Below, in pieces: positions 17,863 through 48,010 of a stretch of DNA of 64,000 bases. This DNA comes from Anaerotruncus sp. GTDB lineage: Bacteria; Bacillota; Clostridia; Oscillospirales; Ruminococcaceae. The notes under the pieces are model-generated. The model was not told the DNA's origin and did not search any database. It saw only the letters and a program-made list of their open reading frames with translations. Both the position numbers and the translations under genes were made by a program. The stretch is taken from positions 1-64,000 of the forward strand of contig JAETRV010000009.1 in NCBI GenBank assembly GCA_021770005.1. The letters run 5' to 3'. Every line of letters begins with the position of its first letter. Positions within the stretch are counted from its first letter, which is position 1.

Positions 17863-18100
17863 TTTGCAGGGGGCTTTTTCTCTTGCAAAAAGCTGCTGGA
17901 CGGGGAACCACCCTTCCTCTTGCTAAACCGCTTGTAAGCGGTTTAGCGCTTTGCTAAACCGCTTGTAAGCGGTTTAGCGCTTCAAGGTATTTTTGTCCGG
18001 CACATGTCCGGACAAAAATAAAAATGCGCTTCTCAGGTGGGCGCCCGCAGCGAAGCGTTTCGGAGCGCAACCGGCGCGCAGCGTCGGCTCTTAGCGCGGA
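17863..18100. repeat. Mosaic intergenic repeat (inverted relative to the 1-555 copy)
   Basis: This 300-base gap between the hexuloisomerase and the next dehydrogenase contains no gene. It carries two tandem copies of a GCTAAACCGCTTGTAAGCGG-containing palindrome near 17924-17981, then a TTTTTGTCCGG...CCGGACAAAAA palindrome at 17990-18020, GCGCTTCTCAGG and GGCTCTTAGCGCGGAG. Reverse-complemented, these modules match parts of 280-490, in a partly different order. The 17865-17898 hairpin could also terminate the upstream operon. Confidence 0.65.
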
Positions 18101-24741: not shown

Positions 24742-24780
24742 TTCGTTTCCTCCATATTTTTTGTTTTACATAGGGTTCAG

Positions 24781-24820
24781 GAAGCCCCCGCCGAAAGGCG
24801 GGGGCTTCCTCTTTATTTCT
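24781..24820 (+). terminator. Rho-independent terminator after the sugar operon
   Basis: GAAGCCCCCGCC-GAAA-GGCGGGGGCTTC is a perfect 12-bp stem with a GNRA-type loop, followed by CTCTTTATTTC. It marks the end of the carbohydrate locus and the start of AT-rich sequence. Confidence 0.9.
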
Positions 24821-24952
24821 ATACGGTAATTTTATGATTTATTTATATAAAAAACAGTAATCGTCTTTACACATTTAAAACAATTTTAATATATAAAATT
24901 GTTTTATTTTAACGAAATCTGTGTAAAAGATAATCTTTTTTAAGAAAATGGA

Positions 24953-24981
24953 TTGACAAATCTTGTATGTAGAACTATACT
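24953..24981 (+). promoter_or_regulatory. Near-consensus promoter of the AT-rich membrane/secreted gene island
   Basis: TTGACA (24953-24958), 17 bases and TATACT (24976-24981) lie about 75 bases before the first gene, in sequence far richer in A+T than the sugar locus just upstream. Confidence 0.75.
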
Positions 24982-25055
24982 GGATTTGTAATCCGGATTT
25001 ACAAAATTTTCACAAGAATATTAAAAGCCTACTTAATAAGGAGGGATATTGCAAG

Positions 25056-25571
25056 GTGCGCTGGTTTTCTGCTAGTTTGGCTGCAATATGCGGTTGCTTT
25101 TTTGTTGCGTTAACCCGTTTTTCTTTTTTTGTATATCAAAAAATAGTAAACGGGATTTATTATGGAGAAAATCCTGTCCTTTATCTTTCATTGATTGTTT
25201 TCCATTTGGCTGCATGTTTAGTAATCGGCATGATATGCGGAGGAAAAGCACCCGTTCCCACTTATCGACCGCAATCACAGAGTTCCTTTGCTGATTTTTT
25301 GGTTTCCAGAAGAGGTCGGCTAATTGTGCTTCTATTCGTCTTATTAGTGCTCTGCAATCTGTTTCCGGATATTATTGGGTATGCCCATGGTATCCTTATG
25401 ACGAATAGAATGAATAACTCTATTTTCAGCCATCCTCTTTGGCATCAGTTTTTGATTCTGGAACTTGCTGATGTTGTGGCGGTTTCCTCCTATCTGCTCT
25501 GTGCGATCTGCTATCACCTTCGTATTGGTTGGCGAGAGTTTCAAAATATGAAAAGGAGTATTTTGCTATGA
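25056..25571 (+). CDS. Uncharacterised membrane protein of an AT-rich island
   Basis: This 171-residue protein has four hydrophobic segments, at about residues 3-25, 42-62, 87-107 and 134-155, so it is a polytopic membrane protein. I choose the GTG at 25056 because AAGGAGGG lies about 10 bases upstream; the track start at 24963 lies inside the promoter. Its last codons overlap the next start (ATGA), coupling it to the secreted protein. Base composition is much lower in G+C than the host genes, suggesting acquisition. No family is recognised. A role in export of, or immunity to, the coupled secreted protein is possible but speculative. Confidence 0.65.
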   Translation: MRWFSASLAAICGCFFVALTRFSFFVYQKIVNGIYYGENPVLYLSLIVFHLAACLVIGMICGGKAPVPTYRPQSQSSFADFLVSRRGRLIVLLFVLLVLCNLFPDIIGYAHGILMTNRMNNSIFSHPLWHQFLILELADVVAVSSYLLCAICYHLRIGWREFQNMKRSILL

Positions 25572-26230
25572 AAAAAATGATATGGAAAAAATCAATGTAT
25601 ATTTTGCTGAGTGCGTTGCTAGTCCTGTATTCAGCAACTTGTTCGGCATCTGCTTATGATGATAATGTGAAAGCAGAACCAACAGGAACAGTTTCTGTTG
25701 TAAACCGTACAAAAAGTATGAATATTGATATGGTAAGACAGATTGAAAAGGGTGTTTCTGTTGCTGTAAAAGATGAAAATGGCATTTATCATCCGGTCGA
25801 TTGTACAGTTATAGTAAGTGAATTTCCACAGGAAAGGAATGCTTTGCTTGATGGAAATCGCTACAAAATGGATGTTTCTGCTCAAAATATTAAAGTGAAG
25901 TCGAATAGTAAGGACTATAATCATGGGGATACAAATTGCTCTTTGTATCTTACTATGGAATGGAATGATGGACCAGGTACAGAAAATTCTATTGAACGCC
26001 TTAGTGGAAACATAAAGATGGTAAAAGGCACTTATTATGGCGGGCAGGTATACTGGGGAGCAGATGCGAACGATGTATATGATTATAAAAATTTAAGTAA
26101 TAGACAAAAATCGTTTGACTTCGATCCAGACTATGATAACTGGTCTCTTAGTGCAACTTACCGAGTAAACCTTAATGAAGAAGTGGGATATGATGCATAT
26201 GTTACTGTGACTCCTACCATTTTTGATTAA
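25568..26230 (+). CDS. Uncharacterised secreted beta-rich protein
   Basis: This 220-residue protein has a clear signal peptide ('MYILLSALLVLYSATCSASA', cleavage probably after ASA near residue 29). The mature part is rich in Asn, Asp, Tyr and short beta strands ('CSLYLTMEWND', 'GTYYGGQVYWGADANDVYDY', 'NWSLSATYRVNLNEEVGYDA') and ends in 'VTVTPTIFD'. Only one Cys remains after cleavage. The ATG at 25568 overlaps the upstream stop by 4 bases and follows AAAAGGAG. No family is recognised. The pattern of membrane protein plus small secreted protein is seen in some bacteriocin-like loci, but no further evidence supports that. Confidence 0.65.
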   Translation: MKKMIWKKSMYILLSALLVLYSATCSASAYDDNVKAEPTGTVSVVNRTKSMNIDMVRQIEKGVSVAVKDENGIYHPVDCTVIVSEFPQERNALLDGNRYKMDVSAQNIKVKSNSKDYNHGDTNCSLYLTMEWNDGPGTENSIERLSGNIKMVKGTYYGGQVYWGADANDVYDYKNLSNRQKSFDFDPDYDNWSLSATYRVNLNEEVGYDAYVTVTPTIFD

Positions 26231-26272
26231 ATGTTAATAGAAAGCGGATATTGGTCTATTTTTTCTACAAAA

Positions 26273-26303
26273 ATCACAGGGTGTTATTGTGACACCCTGT
26301 GAT
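26273..26303 (+). terminator. Hairpin between the second and third island genes
   Basis: ATCACAGGGTGT / ACACCCTGTGAT is a perfect 12-bp stem with a 7-base loop. It lies between the secreted protein gene and the third gene, without a strong U-tract (TCTGCGC). It is probably an attenuator or mRNA 3' end. Confidence 0.55.
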
Positions 26304-26329
26304 TCTGCGCATAAGGAGGAGAAATCGTA

Positions 26330-26869
26330 ATGAAAAAATAAATTCTGCTTGTTGGGAAATTATTGCTTTTGATTGTTGCGGTTTATCTGCTTACGTTTGC
26401 AAATTCGATATTGGGCTCTATCATAAATTATTTTTATGCCACCTATGAGCAATATTATACGGTTCTTTTCTTTTCAAGCCTCGCGCTCATCGCCCTGTTT
26501 AACATTAGCATCGGGGTGCTGCTCTGCTTTCTGGTACATAAGCTGCCGTTTTTCCGGACCGGTTACCGGGTATTGCCCCGCAAGCAGATCTTTTGGGTGA
26601 TCTTCGGACTGATACTCGGATTTTTTGCGCTTGGTACTAGGCTCGTAGACTTGCCTTATGGGGAGATGGATCTGATGCTTCGTGTTCCTCTGCGTTTTAT
26701 ATTTCAGCACCTTCCATGTGGGTGGGACGAAGTGGCCGCCGTCCCATGGATAGGAAGGTTTTTGCCTCATGAGGGGACCTGCCTGTCCTGCATCGGCGTT
26801 TTCATCGGCTACGAGCTTTTTTCTCTATCCGCAGTCAAGCGGATGCAATCCCAGAAAGTGCAAGGATAA
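26330..26869 (+). pseudogene. Membrane protein gene with stop at codon 4 (nonsense)
   Basis: A strong ribosome binding site (AAGGAGGAG) is followed by ATG AAA AAA TAA and then, in the same frame, an open run of 176 codons beginning ILLVGKLLLLIVAVYLL. The intended product was thus a roughly 179-residue protein, and one AAA-to-TAA change at codon 4 interrupts it. Without the stop it would have four hydrophobic segments ('LLLLIVAVYLLTFANSILGS', 'VLFFSSLALIALFNISIGVL', 'IFWVIFGLILGFFALG', 'LSCIGVFIGYELFSLSA'). Restart at the TTG at 26363 is possible but lacks a ribosome binding site. GC content rises in its 3' part. No family is recognised. Confidence 0.7.
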
Positions 26870-28368: not shown

Positions 28369-28398
28369 CAAATCAATTATAGTCAAATCAATTATAGT
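28369..28398. repeat. Tandem 15-bp repeat upstream of gap
   Basis: CAAATCAATTATAGT is repeated exactly twice in tandem in the spacer between the kinase-like gene and gap. It could be a regulator site or a slippage product. Confidence 0.5.
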
Positions 28399-30022: not shown

Positions 30023-30910
30023 TCATAGCAATATGCTCTCCAGGTCTTCAAGGGTCAACCCTGTAGCTGCCACAATTTGATCATGGGACATACCCATAGC
30101 CAAAAGGTTTTTGGCTATCGTGAGAATGCCTTGACGCCTACCCCTATCTTCGGCAGTTGCCAAGTCAGATTGGAGGTCGGTCTGGTACATCCTACGGCTG
30201 CGAAACACAGCCCGTTCCCGTTCGTCCTGGCTAATGCTCATTAAACGGCTCCCGGCCATTTGCAACACCTCCTTTGATGCTATGACCTCGTTTACTGTTT
30301 CACGGTATGTTGGTTCGCTGGCGTACTGGAAGAATACCGCCCATTTCTCCAGGTCTGTCATATCATCGACAGACTTCTTCATGATCTCTTGGAGCTTGCT
30401 CAACTCTACATATACAACATGAATAGCGTCTGACAATAATTCATTGTCCTCGTCATGCCGCAGAGAGTAAGAATTGACATACCCTAACCGTTCTGGAAAC
30501 ACCGTGTAGGAGCAGAATGTTACCTGATATGTCCGGGCTAGTTTATCGTATCTCCGTAGTCCCTTGGAAGGCTGGGAAGAATGAAGATCGCATAGATAGT
30601 ATATGCTCTTGCCTTTTAGATTCTGGTACTGACCGTCAGAATCCTCTTGGATACGGCTGGCCTGCATCTCTAAATCGACCTGGGAACCATCATCAATGCG
30701 ACAATTCACATCAAGCCTTTCCGCTTTCTCGTGGGTATCTTCGGGAGGTATTTCGCTGTTGCGGACCTCTACATCAATCACAGGATGTTTGATGACAGAT
30801 GAAATCAGATCTTTCAGAATCGGTTTAGATTCTTCGGGCGATAAAATCAGCTTGAATACCCGGTCATCGGACGGCGGTAGTATATCCGCATCCATTGGCA
30901 GCAGTCCCAT
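30023..30910 (-). CDS. Rpn family recombination-promoting nuclease / PD-(D/E)XK nuclease family protein
   Basis: This is a 295-residue protein of the Rpn / PDDEXK_2 family. 'PPSDDRVFKLILSPEESKPI' starts the nuclease domain; 'ERLDVNCRIDDGSQVDLEMQ' carries the catalytic Asp and Glu-x-Gln core; 'GRRQGILTIAKNLLAMGMSH' and 'DQIVAATGLTLEDLESIL' form the C-terminal tail typical of the family. Such proteins nick DNA and promote recombination, and many are mobile-element passengers or anti-phage factors. I place the start at ATG 30910; a TTG at 30928 is also possible and the ribosome binding site is weak (GGGGTG). It has its own terminator. Confidence 0.85.
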   Translation of the reverse strand: MGLLPMDADILPPSDDRVFKLILSPEESKPILKDLISSVIKHPVIDVEVRNSEIPPEDTHEKAERLDVNCRIDDGSQVDLEMQASRIQEDSDGQYQNLKGKSIYYLCDLHSSQPSKGLRRYDKLARTYQVTFCSYTVFPERLGYVNSYSLRHDEDNELLSDAIHVVYVELSKLQEIMKKSVDDMTDLEKWAVFFQYASEPTYRETVNEVIASKEVLQMAGSRLMSISQDERERAVFRSRRMYQTDLQSDLATAEDRGRRQGILTIAKNLLAMGMSHDQIVAATGLTLEDLESILL

Positions 30911-31065
30911 AAAGCAACACCCCAACAAACTTTTTTCATTATCAGTATATCACAGATCAAGCCATATTTCCACTACAATTTCCGATAACCCTTTCTCTTC
31001 TCCGTGTAATGTGTCGTATGAGCCATACCCGCAACGATATATTATCAAGATAGATGATACCTAGG

Positions 31066-41793: not shown

Positions 41794-42927
41794 TTACTCT
41801 CGGACAAGGCCAAATGCGTTTGCTAAGGAATTAAATACTTGGTTTATGGAATCCTGCAAAGAATGCTCTTCTGTACACATACTTTCTAGTGAATTGACAA
41901 TATTTCTTTCAATTGCATAGGATGTATTCCAGCCAGTGTCAGTAATGTAGCCCTTTGCATTTAATAAGGTCGCCGAAACATGCCAAGGCTTTGGGACATT
42001 TAACCTATTAAGCAGGGAACCATAATCTGTTATAATGCGTACAAGACGTCCTTGTAAATCATCCCAGTTGTATACTTCCTTATCTTTGTATCCAGAAATA
42101 CAGCGGATTTCTGTCGCTTCTATGATCCCACTATGAAAAAACTGAGTATAGGTTTTAATAAGATTAGTTGAATAATCAGCATCAAAAATACAATAGCCAT
42201 CTGCATTATATCGGGAACTCCAGCCGTTTCCAGTAAGTGGATGAACTGGAGGATTTCCATCGACTTGTTTTAGGTCAACAATATTCCCTAGCTCAAAGCT
42301 CCATTCCGGAATGATGTGTATCACGAGTTTGCCAAGGTTTCCTAAATTCCCAACACACTCATTCGCCAAAATAAGGGATATGCGTTCCCGCTTAAAATCT
42401 CGAATTTTATCTTGAAGTCCATTTGTATACAAAAATTCTTTTCGTAAGTCATCAATATCCATGTACATGATACCATTGACGTGGCGCATGAAAAATTCAT
42501 CTTTATTGCCGTCCCAAAAACTATGGGGACGTGCATAACTTTTAGGAACAGAAATGACAATAGCAATATTATTAGCATCAAGTTCAACAGGCACGCAATC
42601 AATCCCATGCAAATGAGGACGAATACGGGATAGCACCATCTGTCTAAATGACGATAACCAATTATCAAAATCACCCAGTCCCATACCTGCGCCGCTCAAT
42701 TTTATAGGGAGCCGATTTTCGTCCTCCTGCATCCCAATAATAATAGTGCCACCATTTGTATTTGCGAGAGCAGCAATCTCTTTCATAAATTTGTCTTTTT
42801 GTTTATCTTGTAATTTTCCTCCCACAAATGAATAATCCTTATATTCCAGTTCCCGATTTTCAAAGATTTGATTGTCAATAAGCCCTTGTAAATCACGTTT
42901 CGTTATGTTCTTTGTATTGAATAACAA
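41794..42927 (-). CDS. AlbA_2 (Schlafen-like) domain ATP-binding-type protein
   Basis: The 377-residue protein has an N-terminal AlbA_2 domain ('ENRELEYKDYSF', 'KDKFMKEIAALANTNGGTII', 'IGMQEDENRLPIKLSGAG'). The following segments ('IDCVPVELDANNIAIVISVP', 'PHSFWDGNKDEFFMRHVNGI') fit the same family, called putative DNA-binding or Schlafen AlbA_2. A helical C-terminal region has no clear match. It starts at a TTG (42927) after GGAGGT, 33 bases behind the restriction-modification gene on the same strand, so they are probably co-transcribed. Members near restriction genes are suspected in phage defence; the role here is inferred. Confidence 0.78.
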   Translation of the reverse strand: MLFNTKNITKRDLQGLIDNQIFENRELEYKDYSFVGGKLQDKQKDKFMKEIAALANTNGGTIIIGMQEDENRLPIKLSGAGMGLGDFDNWLSSFRQMVLSRIRPHLHGIDCVPVELDANNIAIVISVPKSYARPHSFWDGNKDEFFMRHVNGIMYMDIDDLRKEFLYTNGLQDKIRDFKRERISLILANECVGNLGNLGKLVIHIIPEWSFELGNIVDLKQVDGNPPVHPLTGNGWSSRYNADGYCIFDADYSTNLIKTYTQFFHSGIIEATEIRCISGYKDKEVYNWDDLQGRLVRIITDYGSLLNRLNVPKPWHVSATLLNAKGYITDTGWNTSYAIERNIVNSLESMCTEEHSLQDSINQVFNSLANAFGLVRE

Positions 42928-42960
42928 TGTAGCTACCTCCCAATAGTTTTATAAGCTCAA

Positions 42961-45711
42961 TTATTTTGCCATCTTCTGATACATCTTCATCAACTCCGAC
43001 ACGCAGGCCGGCTCGGAGTTCAGTTTACCCCAAAATCCATAGGCCACCATCACGGCTTTGTCGTTCATCTGGTGGGCCTTCCGCAGTTCCGGGGGCATGG
43101 TGGTTTCATCGTAGAGATCGGCAAGGCTGGCGTCCGGGTAGAGGGCACGGGCGTCAAGAATGGCCTGGGCGGTCTGCTCGATTTTGGCCTTTTGTGCGTC
43201 CGTAGGGGTAGGCCAGGGGAAGTTGTTGTAGACAACATCCTTGGAATAGCGGTAGTCGCTTTTCAGCCGTCCGCAGACAGCACGCATCCAGGCCATGTGT
43301 ACGTTAGAGGTCAGCACACCTAAATGATACAGAGTAGCATCAGGAATAATAAATACAAGATCGCTACTTAATATTTTGGAATCGACCAGTCCCATAGGTA
43401 CATAACGTCTACGTTCAGAAGAGACTTTCGGAATTATTATATAATTCGTTTGGGGAATATTGGTTGTTCCAAATATCAACGGAAAATCAGCAAGCTTTTT
43501 CGTTGATGCTCTCGAACTATCTGACCGAAACTTTTGAACAGCCTCAACGCGCTCTATGCACTTTGGCATTTTCCGGAGCTCACCGGGTGGACAATCTTTT
43601 AAGTATAGGCAATACCTAAAATACCGGTTAATAAACTCATGGGAGCCTACCCAAGGTCTAAACCACTTTTCCGCCATTGGTTCTGCTCTTAAAAATTCCT
43701 CCATTTCAGATTTTGTAAATAGATAAAATCCGCCGTCAAGAGGCATATTGCCGATACCAATATTAGGAACATCACATATAGATTTATTGCGGCTCTCTAC
43801 AAACACATTGTCAGCATCCAACAGATACCCGTTGATGTTCTGAACCACCTGCGCCCGTTCTGATGTGAACAGCGTTTTAGGTGTGGCGTTGGGGGCCGTG
43901 CTGAATCCGACGATCACACAATGAACATGGGCTTTGATTTTGGCCTCGCTGTCCCAGCGGAATGTCCGGTGAGCAAAGTCGATATGAACGCCTGATTCAA
44001 ACAGCGGTTTCCATAGATTGGCTACCGCTTCACCCTGGGTCACAGAGTTGGTGGATACCAGAGCGGCCCGGATAGACGTTCCCGCCATCAAGTCTGCAGC
44101 TTTCTTATACCAGCAGGAAACGTAGTCCAGATTTCCGGCGTTCTTCCATCCGGGGAAAATGGCGTTTACATCGTCCTTCTGTTCTGCGCCCATCATCCGC
44201 GCGCCGATAAAGGGCGGATTGCCCATAATGTAGTCCAACTCGTGCTTGGGGATCACATCCGTCCACTCTGTCCGCAGGGCATTGCCTTCCACAATGTTGG
44301 CATAGGATTTCAGCGGCAGAAAATCCAAGGTCATGTGTACCACGTCCTCGGTTTCCTTCATCATCTGGCTTTCAGCGATCCACAGCGCCGTCTTTGCCAC
44401 AGTCACAGCGAAGTCGTTGATTTCTATACCGTAAAACTGGTTGATGGAGACTTGAATCGGATTGCCGATGTCCAGCATGATTTGTCCCTTATGAAGCAGA
44501 GAGATTGTTTCATTTTCCAGCCGCCGGAGGGAGATGTACGTTTCCGTCAGGAAGTTGCCCGAACCACAGGCAGGGTCAAGGAATTTCAGCCCCGCCAGCT
44601 TCCTCTGAAAGGCTTCCAGCTTGGCCTTGCGGGTCCGCTCCACCGTGACGGCCTCAATCTCCGCAAACTCGGCTTTCAGTCCATCCAGGAATAACGGGTC
44701 AATCAGCTTATGGATATTCTCAATGCTGGTGTAGTGCATCCCGCCAGAGCGCCGGGTTTCCGGGTTGAGGGTGCTTTCAAAGACCGCGCCGAAAATGGTG
44801 GGACTGATAGCAGACCAGTCAAAGTCCTCGCTGGCTTTTCGCAGAATCAGGTCAACGATGGTTTCATCCAGCCGGGGAATCACGATATTTTCATCTGCGA
44901 ACAATCCGCCGTTGACGTAGGGGAACGCCGCTAAGTCCTCGTCCATGTATGGGTCACGTTCTTCCGGCTTCGTGTCCAGGACTTTGAACAGGTCAATCAG
45001 GGCACGGCGGGCCTCCCGCTCATGCCCCTGCAAGTAGTCATGGAACATACTCCGGTTTCCAAAAATCCCGGCATCCTCAGCATACAGGCAGAACACCAGA
45101 CGGACACACAGCTTGTTCAGACTTTTCAGCGTTTCCGGGTCTCTGGGGTCTTTGTACTGCTTTAGGAGCGCATCATAGAGCACCCCCACCAACTCGCCAG
45201 CCTGGAGGGAGATTTCCATTTCCTTTTTGATATGCTCGCTGCCCGTGTCCACCAGAAATTGCAGACGGTGAAACTCCTTCTCCAAGTCCGCCAGCTTGAG
45301 GACTTCCGGCTCGTCATTGGGGCGGTTCATATCGTGAATCTGAAACTCCTGGAAGTTGCAGACGATAATCCAGCGGGGGACCTGGTTATAGGGCAGATAC
45401 CCGGCATACCTTCTGGCCTGCTGGTAAGGGGTCAGCATACTGCCGTCAGACTGCTTGTACCCTTTCCGCAGATCAATGTCCCGGCCCTTCTGCTCAATCA
45501 GGACACGGGTGGATTCGATGTAGCCGTCAATGAAGCTGGTATGGTCCAGCTTCACCGGGACTTCAAATGCAATAGCGGTAGAACCGTCTACGCCGAAAAC
45601 CTTCGTCAGCAGTTCAATCCAAAACCGCTGCGTCTCCTGCTTCTCATCGCCCCGGCCCTTCCAATCCGCCGCAAACCGGGTGGCGGCAGTGCGCTTTTCC
45701 ACATCCGTCAT
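42961..45711 (-). CDS. MmeI-like Type II (IIL) restriction-modification enzyme
   Basis: This 916-residue fused endonuclease-methyltransferase has an N-terminal PD-(D/E)XK nuclease (D62 in 'SFIDGYIEST', E73-x-K75 in 'LIEQKG'), then a helical connector. The gamma-type N6-adenine methyltransferase follows, with motif I 'LDPACGSGNF' (about residue 375) and motif IV 'IMGNPPFIG' (about residue 495). A target-recognition region and C-terminal tail ('DVVYNNFPWPTPTDAQKAKI') complete it. Length and order match MmeI-family single-chain enzymes that cut and modify DNA with one target domain. The start at ATG 45711 follows GGAGG. It is intact, and co-directional with the AlbA_2 gene as a defence cargo module. 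Confidence 0.88.
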   Translation of the reverse strand: MTDVEKRTAATRFAADWKGRGDEKQETQRFWIELLTKVFGVDGSTAIAFEVPVKLDHTSFIDGYIESTRVLIEQKGRDIDLRKGYKQSDGSMLTPYQQARRYAGYLPYNQVPRWIIVCNFQEFQIHDMNRPNDEPEVLKLADLEKEFHRLQFLVDTGSEHIKKEMEISLQAGELVGVLYDALLKQYKDPRDPETLKSLNKLCVRLVFCLYAEDAGIFGNRSMFHDYLQGHEREARRALIDLFKVLDTKPEERDPYMDEDLAAFPYVNGGLFADENIVIPRLDETIVDLILRKASEDFDWSAISPTIFGAVFESTLNPETRRSGGMHYTSIENIHKLIDPLFLDGLKAEFAEIEAVTVERTRKAKLEAFQRKLAGLKFLDPACGSGNFLTETYISLRRLENETISLLHKGQIMLDIGNPIQVSINQFYGIEINDFAVTVAKTALWIAESQMMKETEDVVHMTLDFLPLKSYANIVEGNALRTEWTDVIPKHELDYIMGNPPFIGARMMGAEQKDDVNAIFPGWKNAGNLDYVSCWYKKAADLMAGTSIRAALVSTNSVTQGEAVANLWKPLFESGVHIDFAHRTFRWDSEAKIKAHVHCVIVGFSTAPNATPKTLFTSERAQVVQNINGYLLDADNVFVESRNKSICDVPNIGIGNMPLDGGFYLFTKSEMEEFLRAEPMAEKWFRPWVGSHEFINRYFRYCLYLKDCPPGELRKMPKCIERVEAVQKFRSDSSRASTKKLADFPLIFGTTNIPQTNYIIIPKVSSERRRYVPMGLVDSKILSSDLVFIIPDATLYHLGVLTSNVHMAWMRAVCGRLKSDYRYSKDVVYNNFPWPTPTDAQKAKIEQTAQAILDARALYPDASLADLYDETTMPPELRKAHQMNDKAVMVAYGFWGKLNSEPACVSELMKMYQKMAK

Positions 45712-45795
45712 GGTCTTACCTCCGCAAACGGGATTTGCAACCAGTATACTACATTATAGCAAAAATGGCAATCGCTAACGGAATGGGCAAGCAAT

Positions 45796-45827
45796 GTATC
45801 GGAATATCCTTTTGGATATTCCGATAC
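45796..45827. repeat. 14-bp inverted repeat upstream of the restriction gene
   Basis: GTATCGGAATATCC-TTTT-GGATATTCCGATAC is a perfect stem, extended by flanking CAAGC/GCTTG. It lies about 85 bases upstream of the restriction-modification start. It could be a regulator site or part of a transfer/replication origin. Confidence 0.6.
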
Positions 45828-45839
45828 GCTTGTTGGGAG

Positions 45840-46035
45840 TCTCGCCTGGCGGCTCGGTCAGCGCTACTGAGTGCCTCAGCACTCAGCGGTCGCCACCGGC
45901 GACCCGCGCCCCCAAGCCCCGGACTGTCCGCTTTGCGTCCAGTCGAACACGACTGACGGCGTGGCTTTTGTCGCTCCCTTTGGTCGCTCGTTCCTGCACA
46001 TCCGCGCAGGAAGTATGGGGCGCATTTTGCGCCCG
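45840..46035. other. GC-rich, hairpin-rich non-coding segment (possible origin of transfer)
   Basis: Between the restriction gene and the SLOG gene there is a short GC-rich stretch with stacked hairpins (CTGAGTGC/GCACTCAG near 45866, GGTCGCC/GGCGACC near 45887). It is much richer in G+C than the flanking element DNA. No gene is seen. Such structure is typical of oriT or other processing sites, but no nic motif is recognised. Confidence 0.35.
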
Positions 46036-46623
46036 TCAGGGGTGCGATGGGGACAGCGCGGTTTCACCATGGGAGACAGAGAGCGTGATAGGGTCAATCA
46101 CGATAATCTCCCGGCCCGCCTTTTGAGCGTAACAGACAGTAGCAGCCGTCCCACCCCGTTTCTCTCCGTTATCAACAGCAAGCAGGAGAGCGGCGTAATC
46201 AACCAATCGTTGGTTACGCTCCAGCATACACTTTCTGTCATAGGCGCGCTTTACATATTCCACGGAATCTGCTTCACTCAGGATGTCTCTGTAACAAGCT
46301 TGGGCTGGGGTTGACCACTTCATTTCCTGCCCCTCGCAGGGCAGAACACAGTGGAGTTTGATTGCCGGTTTTCTCTCCCGCAGATCAAGGACGGCTATCG
46401 CCGCCCAGGTATCTACTCCAAGGGCCATCCCGGTATAGAAGTCTGTCACACCAGCCGCCGCCAGCTTCTCAATCTGTCGGGCAAGCACAGCTTTCAACTC
46501 AACGCACCGGGGATCGTTTTCGTCATACTTCCAGGGGAATTTGGCAGGGCGGTGTCCCGTAAAGGCACAGCTCGTATACAATTTATTTTTCATCATTTCA
46601 CCATAGCTTTCCGTTGTGTGCAT
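46036..46623 (-). CDS. SLOG-family (DUF1273/YpsA-like) protein
   Basis: This 195-residue Rossmann-like SLOG domain shows 'CAFTGHRPAKFPWKYDENDP', 'GVTDFYTGMALGVDTWAAIA', 'KLHCVLPCEGQEMKWS' and 'AALLLAVDNGEKRGGTAATV', matching the YpsA/DUF1273 group. SLOG proteins bind nucleotide-derived ligands and recur in conflict systems and mobile elements. It starts at ATG 46623 (or 46596) and is divergent from the XRE regulator at 46756 across a repeat-rich spacer. It ends close to the hairpin-rich segment. Confidence 0.82.
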   Translation of the reverse strand: MHTTESYGEMMKNKLYTSCAFTGHRPAKFPWKYDENDPRCVELKAVLARQIEKLAAAGVTDFYTGMALGVDTWAAIAVLDLRERKPAIKLHCVLPCEGQEMKWSTPAQACYRDILSEADSVEYVKRAYDRKCMLERNQRLVDYAALLLAVDNGEKRGGTAATVCYAQKAGREIIVIDPITLSVSHGETALSPSHP

Positions 46624-46669
46624 TTATTCTGCCCTTTTTGAGCAGTATAGTAGCAGTTCTATTTTACAC

Positions 46670-46745
46670 CTAATAGTTCGTAATAGCAACTAAAAATTCG
46701 TTATAGAAGCGAACCAAAAGTTGTAAAATACGAACCAGCGAAAGG
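46670..46745. promoter_or_regulatory. Divergent operator region with repeated half-sites
   Basis: The spacer between the SLOG gene and the XRE gene carries TTCGTAATAG, TTCGTTATAG and two inverted-orientation CGAACC copies (AGCGAACCAA and TACGAACCAG). Repeated TTCGTWATAG-like half-sites suit binding by the adjacent XRE repressor. Confidence 0.5.
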
Positions 46746-46755
46746 GCGTGATAAC

Positions 46756-47091
46756 ATGACGCATGATGAACTGCTCCTATTCGGTGAACGTCTTCATAGC
46801 AGACGTAAGTTGCTGAATTTTACGCAAGACTTTGTATCTGAAAAAGCGGGCATAAGTCTGCGGTTTTATCAGATGATAGAACGCGGCGAAAAGAGTGTAT
46901 CGCTGGATACGCTCATTCGTTTGAGCGACATTTTGAAAATCAGCGTTGACTATCTGTTGTTTGGCGATTTGTCATATTCCCTTGACAACCCTTTAACAGA
47001 AGCACTTGGCAGGTTATCACCCCAGCAGCGTGAGGACGCGCTTAAAATTTTGCAGTTATACTCCAAAGCTTGCAGTTCACAAAACAAATAA
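46756..47091 (+). CDS. XRE-family helix-turn-helix regulator
   Basis: The 111-residue protein has an N-terminal HTH_3 domain ('LNFTQDFVSEKAGISLRFYQ', 'MIERGEKSVSLDTLIRLSDI') and a C-terminal helix ('ALGRLSPQQREDALKILQLY'). Its layout mirrors the 32265 regulator. It is a likely repressor of the divergent SLOG promoter and of itself through the TTCGTWATAG repeats. The gene is closed by a good terminator. Confidence 0.88.
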   Translation: MTHDELLLFGERLHSRRKLLNFTQDFVSEKAGISLRFYQMIERGEKSVSLDTLIRLSDILKISVDYLLFGDLSYSLDNPLTEALGRLSPQQREDALKILQLYSKACSSQNK

Positions 47092-47135
47092 AAATCAGCA
47101 TTGCTCTATTCCGCGCAATGCTGATTTTTATTGTA
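47090..47135 (+). terminator. Terminator after the XRE regulator
   Basis: An AAAAATCAGCATTGC / GCAATGCTGATTTTT 15-bp stem with a 10-base loop and ATTG tail begins at the stop codon. Confidence 0.9.
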
Positions 47136-47165
47136 TTATCAGAAATATTTTTGGAGGTTTTCAAG

Positions 47166-48010
<845 letters not shown>

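Follow-up and report, generated by a model that had tools for sequence, protein, structure and literature searches.

We propose that the segment between the transketolase gene (tkt) and gap in the window (the whole 64,000-nucleotide stretch of DNA analysed) encodes a Sec-secreted antibacterial protein, ORF2, and its four-transmembrane (4-TM) immunity protein, ORF1, and that the pair sits in a hypervariable locus; as judged by gene content and comparison with related loci, we assign this reading a probability of roughly 0.5. The segment would be the current filling of a resident locus between transketolase and histidine kinase/gap, in which a fixed skeleton – terminator, strong promoter with a private palindrome, ribosome-binding site (RBS) and signal-peptide start, hairpin and ORF3 – carries exchangeable secreted cargo. 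Sec would export ORF2, whose mature form of some 191 residues would act on related bacteria from outside, and ORF1, its dedicated partner, translated first and coupled to it, would protect the producer, perhaps via the exposed loop between TM3 and TM4. ORF3 would be an orphan immunity-like gene left from earlier cargo that has drifted to a nonsense mutation. We also put forward, tentatively and at a little under even odds, a broader proposal: a secreted MTWIDG/PTIFD protein and a 4-TM immunity protein would form a two-gene antibacterial system, not described before and scattered among Clostridia and other Bacillota. Here the system would occupy a chromosomal cassette locus in which mature secreted domains are exchanged while the promoter, operator and signal peptide in front of them stay resident, and in which recombining orphan paralogues of immunity genes are retained.

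The ORF1–ORF2 pair and its relatives

ORF1 (25056..25571, + strand, GTG start) encodes a protein of 171 aa with four TM segments in a positive-inside topology, the putative immunity partner of ORF2 (25568..26230, + strand, ATG start), which is predicted to be a Sec-type secreted protein of 220 aa and belongs to an undescribed family marked by the motifs MTWIDG and PTIFD. The ORF2 start codon overlaps the ORF1 stop as ATGA and has its own Shine–Dalgarno (SD) sequence, AAGGAG at 25553; the Sec-type signal peptide is likely cut after A29, a site judged by eye. The beta-rich character ascribed to ORF2 in the preliminary description is plausible, but low-confidence models (pLDDT about 40) are its only basis: AlphaFold2, run twice on three-sequence alignments, yielded a pLDDT of 40–41, too poor for fold comparison.

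We found six further ORF2 homologues at five loci in other genera: in the Oscillospiraceae MAG RGIG8500 (G200), in degraded form in a Butyricicoccus MAG (G412), at one locus each in genomes G598 and G652, and twice in tandem in G1368, a genome of a different family within the phylum. These proteins are 24–32% identical to ORF2 (hhalign E-values down to 2e-16), share the core MTWIDGPGxxNSIxNLSG...WGSD and a PTIFD-like C-terminus and, like ORF2, start with Sec-type signal peptides. The spread of the family is patchy, with 5 other genomes among the about 1,900 covered by a non-exhaustive survey with differing queries; weak matches mainly over signal peptides or short stretches were excluded.

A small 4-TM gene (150–177 aa) adjoins the gene for the secreted protein at 6/6 loci of the family, the window included, lying upstream in the window and downstream at the others. 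The intact partners have the same positive-inside topology, an exposed loop of 25–43 residues between TM3 and TM4 and short cytosolic loops (16–31 residues); in G412 both the secreted and the membrane gene are broken, the latter split into two frames. In a background set of 129 ORFs (120 aa or longer) from the window and the related loci, the other small 3–5 TM proteins are the ORF3 family and one further ORF; with so few genes of this kind in the background, it is very improbable that the pairing arose by chance. ORF1 matches its G598 counterpart with an E-value of 0.0018, a score that 0/150 segment-wise shuffles reach, and the G598 pair holds the closest relatives of both ORF1 and ORF2. We rejected the grouping of ORF1, ORF3 and the other partners into one sequence family, the ORF1/G598 match being marginal and the rest at noise. 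As judged by these sequence comparisons, ORF1 and ORF2 are a separate, real two-gene module, and the earlier suggestion of a secreted protein with a dedicated membrane partner is borne out by a pairing kept at every locus of the family.

The ORF1/ORF2 module had no match in Pfam, NCBIfam or PADLOC and only weak matches in PHROGs, the strongest of which, PHROG 33499 to the G652 homologue (E 0.004), begins in the signal peptide. No Pfam family matched ORF1 or ORF3, a PDB sequence search found no match, nor did searches of phages, plasmids and viral contigs with family members, and Rfam had no match. Since no PADLOC model matched ORF1, ORF2, the ORF3 homologue or the family members, a known anti-phage defence system was rejected. 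The earlier statement that none of the three genes has a recognised family thus stands, as our search for characterised homologues found none. Near two of the ORF2-family loci (L044 1400–2504 and L072 7308–8803) we observed ECF-sigma-like genes together with putative anti-sigma genes (DUF4367- or DUF4179-like), which possibly indicates a regulatory link. The ORF2 remnant in the Butyricicoccus MAG is closely preceded by a second small gene pair (L055 456–1070), coding for a signal-peptide protein of 103 aa and a 2-TM protein of 71 aa.

The locus in the window and in a sister species

The AT-rich segment, its promoter, the ORF1/ORF2 coupling, the hairpin and the SD sequence and early stop of ORF3 were all found where the preliminary description had placed them. 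Its picture of 2 kb of AT-rich DNA holds for ORF1 and ORF2 (40% and 36% GC, compared to 59% for tkt) but not for the 3′ half of ORF3 (52% GC). Furthermore, the window is equally AT-rich (36–41% GC) at 42–43 and 48–51 kb, and because of these other stretches AT-richness alone is no marker of an island.

The tkt operon ends in an intrinsic terminator (24779..24810, + strand), a copy of which recurs before the second promoter in the sister species G006 of the same genus. The sigma-70-type promoter TTGACA-17-TATACT (24953..24981, + strand; 11/12 matches) sits inside a block, 24746–25021, that is 92% identical to this second G006 promoter. Just after the –10 lies a palindrome, TTGTAATCCGGATTTACAA (24986..25004, unstranded), a putative operator that may be the binding site of a local repressor; the form common to both species, TTGTAA(A)TCCGGATTTACAA, directly follows the –10. 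Searched with up to 3 mismatches, the palindrome is confined to this locus in the window's genome (G000) and in G006, and a genome-wide repeat was rejected on this ground.

The transketolase and gap proteins that flank the locus in G006 are 98–99% identical to those of the window. Between them the order is tkt, terminator, promoter, the secreted protein sec1, a second terminator and promoter, an M23 peptidase (with a signal peptide; Pfam 7e-15), a lipoprotein, a broken sec2, two tandem intact ORF3 homologues, histidine kinase and gap, so that the cargo includes a lipoprotein and secreted proteins without family assignment. Sec1 and the frameshifted sec2 (L005 1571–5224) share two blocks of 300 and 289 nt at 91–92% identity; separated by 3.0 kb, they flank the M23/lipoprotein cargo. 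The idea, formed by eye, that the broken sec2 ends as an NlpC/CHAP-like amidase had no support from Pfam, NCBIfam or PDB and was dropped. In five other genomes of the genus the kinase adjoins gap, and cargo, ORF3 and tkt are absent from the stretch taken upstream of gap. A perfect 15-bp tandem duplication, CAAATCAATTATAGT, upstream of gap in the window (28369–28398) is present as a single copy in the sister genome.

The RBS and first codons of ORF2 (25553..25596, + strand) appear to be a resident signal-peptide start: they are identical to the start of G006 sec2 at 42/44 positions, a score over 44 bp that was reached by 0/300 shuffles. Residues 1–41 of ORF2 also align with G006 sec1; the mature part does not. 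Common to the two species are thus the terminator/promoter, the palindrome, the 44-bp ORF2 start and the hairpin, and the genes between these four pieces differ. The plainest inference is a resident locus that exchanges secreted cargo by recombination, and on the same footing a gene may keep its signal peptide and exchange its mature part.

ORF3 and its hairpin

The hairpin ATCACAGGG...CCCTGTGAT (26273..26303, unstranded; RNA fold z = –5.7, no U-tract) occurs only directly before ORF3-type genes, once in G000 and twice in G006, and was not found in four other genomes of the genus; being private to this locus, it was rejected as a genome-wide repeat. ORF3 (26330..26869, + strand) would encode a 4-TM protein but is interrupted by a stop at codon 4, and we regard it as a pseudogene of the resident locus. 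Its SD sequence, AAGGAGGAG at 26313–26321, lies 8 nt before the ATG at 26330, and the gene reads ATG AAA AAA, a stop at 26339–26341 and then 175 sense codons up to the stop at 26867. The G006 homologues, 86% and 66% identical to ORF3, have the same ATG, the same SD spacing and a sense codon at the position of the window's stop. Because they are intact, the stop does not mark where the family's reading frame truly begins; it arose either in this lineage or as an error of assembly. Relative to them ORF3 is disabled, as had been proposed, and homologues starting downstream of the stop, which the preliminary description had named as evidence to the contrary, were looked for and not seen.

ORF3 is also a mosaic, with the first 210 bp 76–83% identical to the nearest homologue, the remainder mostly 94–99% identical and a sharp change in identity near 26540. 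Over the last 119 codons dS is 0.055, compared to 0.36–0.53 for tkt, gap and the kinase, and the dN/dS of 0.52 compares to 0.01–0.05 for the same genes. ORF3a/3b of G006 and the mosaic ORF3 together show a small gene of immunity-like type whose tandem paralogues recombine. As judged by these comparisons, ORF3 belongs to the resident locus and not to the ORF1–ORF2 module; no ORF3 homologue was seen beside any ORF2 homologue at the five other loci.

Two other accounts of ORF3 bear on this. It is possible, though we think it unlikely, that ORF3 is alive, with the stop being a sequencing or assembly error (it is a single-base lesion in a 155-contig draft) or with translation restarting just downstream at ATT, CTG or TTG codons. 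While the lesion is a single one, the other 175 codons are open and a TTG start at 26363 would retain most of TM1, both G006 homologues use an ATG upstream of the stop position, no SD sequence precedes the later starts, and dN/dS is raised. The view taken in the preliminary description, that the three genes are one recently acquired island whose third gene served ORF2 and is now dead, strikes us as highly improbable. AT-richness, contiguity and the common strand of the three genes fit it; however, ORF3, the hairpin and the promoter block occur in the sister species without ORF1 and ORF2, the ORF2 homologues at other loci come without ORF3, and 199 genomes of the family hold no ORF3 relative bar one weak match. 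With ORF3, the hairpin, the terminator/promoter/palindrome and ~44 bp at the ORF2 start all shared with G006, the claim of a single acquired set is not supported, and recent acquisition fits at most ORF1 and the mature part of ORF2.

Possible functions of the pair

The reading of ORF2 as an antibacterial protein and ORF1 as its immunity partner draws on several lines of evidence. The same locus in the sister genome holds other cargo, including the M23 peptidase; a 4-TM gene of constant topology, of a kind rare in the background, adjoins the secreted gene throughout the family; the nearest relatives of ORF1 and of ORF2 sit together in G598; the distribution is patchy; and gene decay is repeated (ORF3 here, G412, sec2 in G006). 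Moreover, the ORF3 paralogues are tandem and recombining, as described for Firmicute immunity genes (PMC9484751), and the layout equals that of dysgalacticin (PMC8308785). Against it, we found no sequence match to any of the toxin, bacteriocin or immunity families searched, and the structure models were too poor to use. That small membrane proteins diverge fast is not in itself a sign of immunity, and hypervariability also fits surface proteins.

Dysgalacticin (DysA, with DysI) and streptococcin A-M57 are large, non-lytic Sec-secreted class III bacteriocins, and the former is made as a precursor of 220 aa, of which about 28 form the Sec leader, next to a gene for a membrane-associated immunity protein (PMC8308785). 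ORF2/ORF1 likewise combine a 220-aa Sec precursor with an adjacent membrane-protein gene in the absence of modification or ABC-transport genes: the only neighbours of ORF2 are the 4-TM gene and ORF3, and a predicted Sec-type protein of ~20 kDa without modification genes answers to the description of class III. Dysgalacticin is plasmid-borne, whereas ORF1/ORF2, a putative bacteriocin and its putative immunity protein, lie in a chromosomal hypervariable locus. A tblastn search (E up to 0.1) of a plasmid collection lacking the DysA record itself gave no match. The likeness to DysA is one of layout, and ORF2 may work like a dysgalacticin-type bacteriocin rather than be one.

Tandem recombining immunity paralogues are documented in Firmicutes, among them those of the polymorphic T7SS toxins TspA/TsaI, EsaD/EsaG and TelC/TipC (PMC9484751). 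Such loci resemble the one studied here in their recombining tandem immunity-like paralogues and in the partial toxin copies inside the array, and TsaI is a polytopic membrane immunity protein, with five predicted TM segments compared to four in ORF1 and ORF3. However, no T7SS toxin features were seen in ORF2, and a T7SS-exported toxin was rejected because ORF2 and its homologues begin with Sec-type signal peptides. Zoocin A and lysostaphin-type proteins are secreted M23 endopeptidases; the cargo at the same promoter in G006, a signal-peptide-bearing M23 peptidase of putative antibacterial use, is comparable to these, whereas the cargo in the window lacks a peptidase domain.

A non-toxic surface or envelope role for ORF2 (adhesin, wall-binding or matrix protein), with the 4-TM protein as anchor, chaperone or export partner and the locus variable through phage or host selection on surface proteins, is a serious alternative, albeit one that we consider rather unlikely. 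It would account for the signal peptide and the apparently beta-rich chain, as well as for G006 cargo that is lipoprotein or unassigned secreted protein rather than enzyme; however, no wall-anchor motif was seen in ORF2, its partner is encoded as a distinct 4-TM protein that diverges fast, and antagonism accounts better for the M23 peptidase behind the same promoter and for the tandem array of orphan ORF3 genes. We see little prospect of a signal–receptor relation, with ORF2 exported as the signal and sensed by the 4-TM protein: while the private palindrome next to the promoter and the ECF sigma and DUF4367-type genes near two homologues would suit a small signalling pair, the short cytosolic loops of the partners contain no recognised signalling domain and no regulator is conserved beside the pair. 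Should the antibacterial reading be true, a currently unannotated protein family would join the arsenal of competing gut Firmicutes, and the two sister species would provide a natural comparison of shared regulatory parts with different secreted cargo. Through its conserved motif and its pairing the ORF2 family lends itself to searches and tests, and the locus displays turnover of secreted cargo and immunity-like genes.

Elsewhere in the window, an MmeI-type restriction-modification enzyme (42964–45711, – strand) lies beside an SLFN/AlbA_2 protein (41797–42927, – strand), with a resolvase/DUF4368 recombinase fragment (47513–48007, + strand) in the same region; 41797–48007 appears to be an island of its own, of defence or mobile character. 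Downstream of gap, 30026–30928 (– strand) encodes a PD-(D/E)XK nuclease-family transposase (PF12784, Rpn-like; E 1.7e-36). Finally, a 31-bp unit with hairpin structure (GCTAAACCGCTTGTAAGCGGTTTAGC) occurs twice in perfect tandem repeat at 17920–17982.
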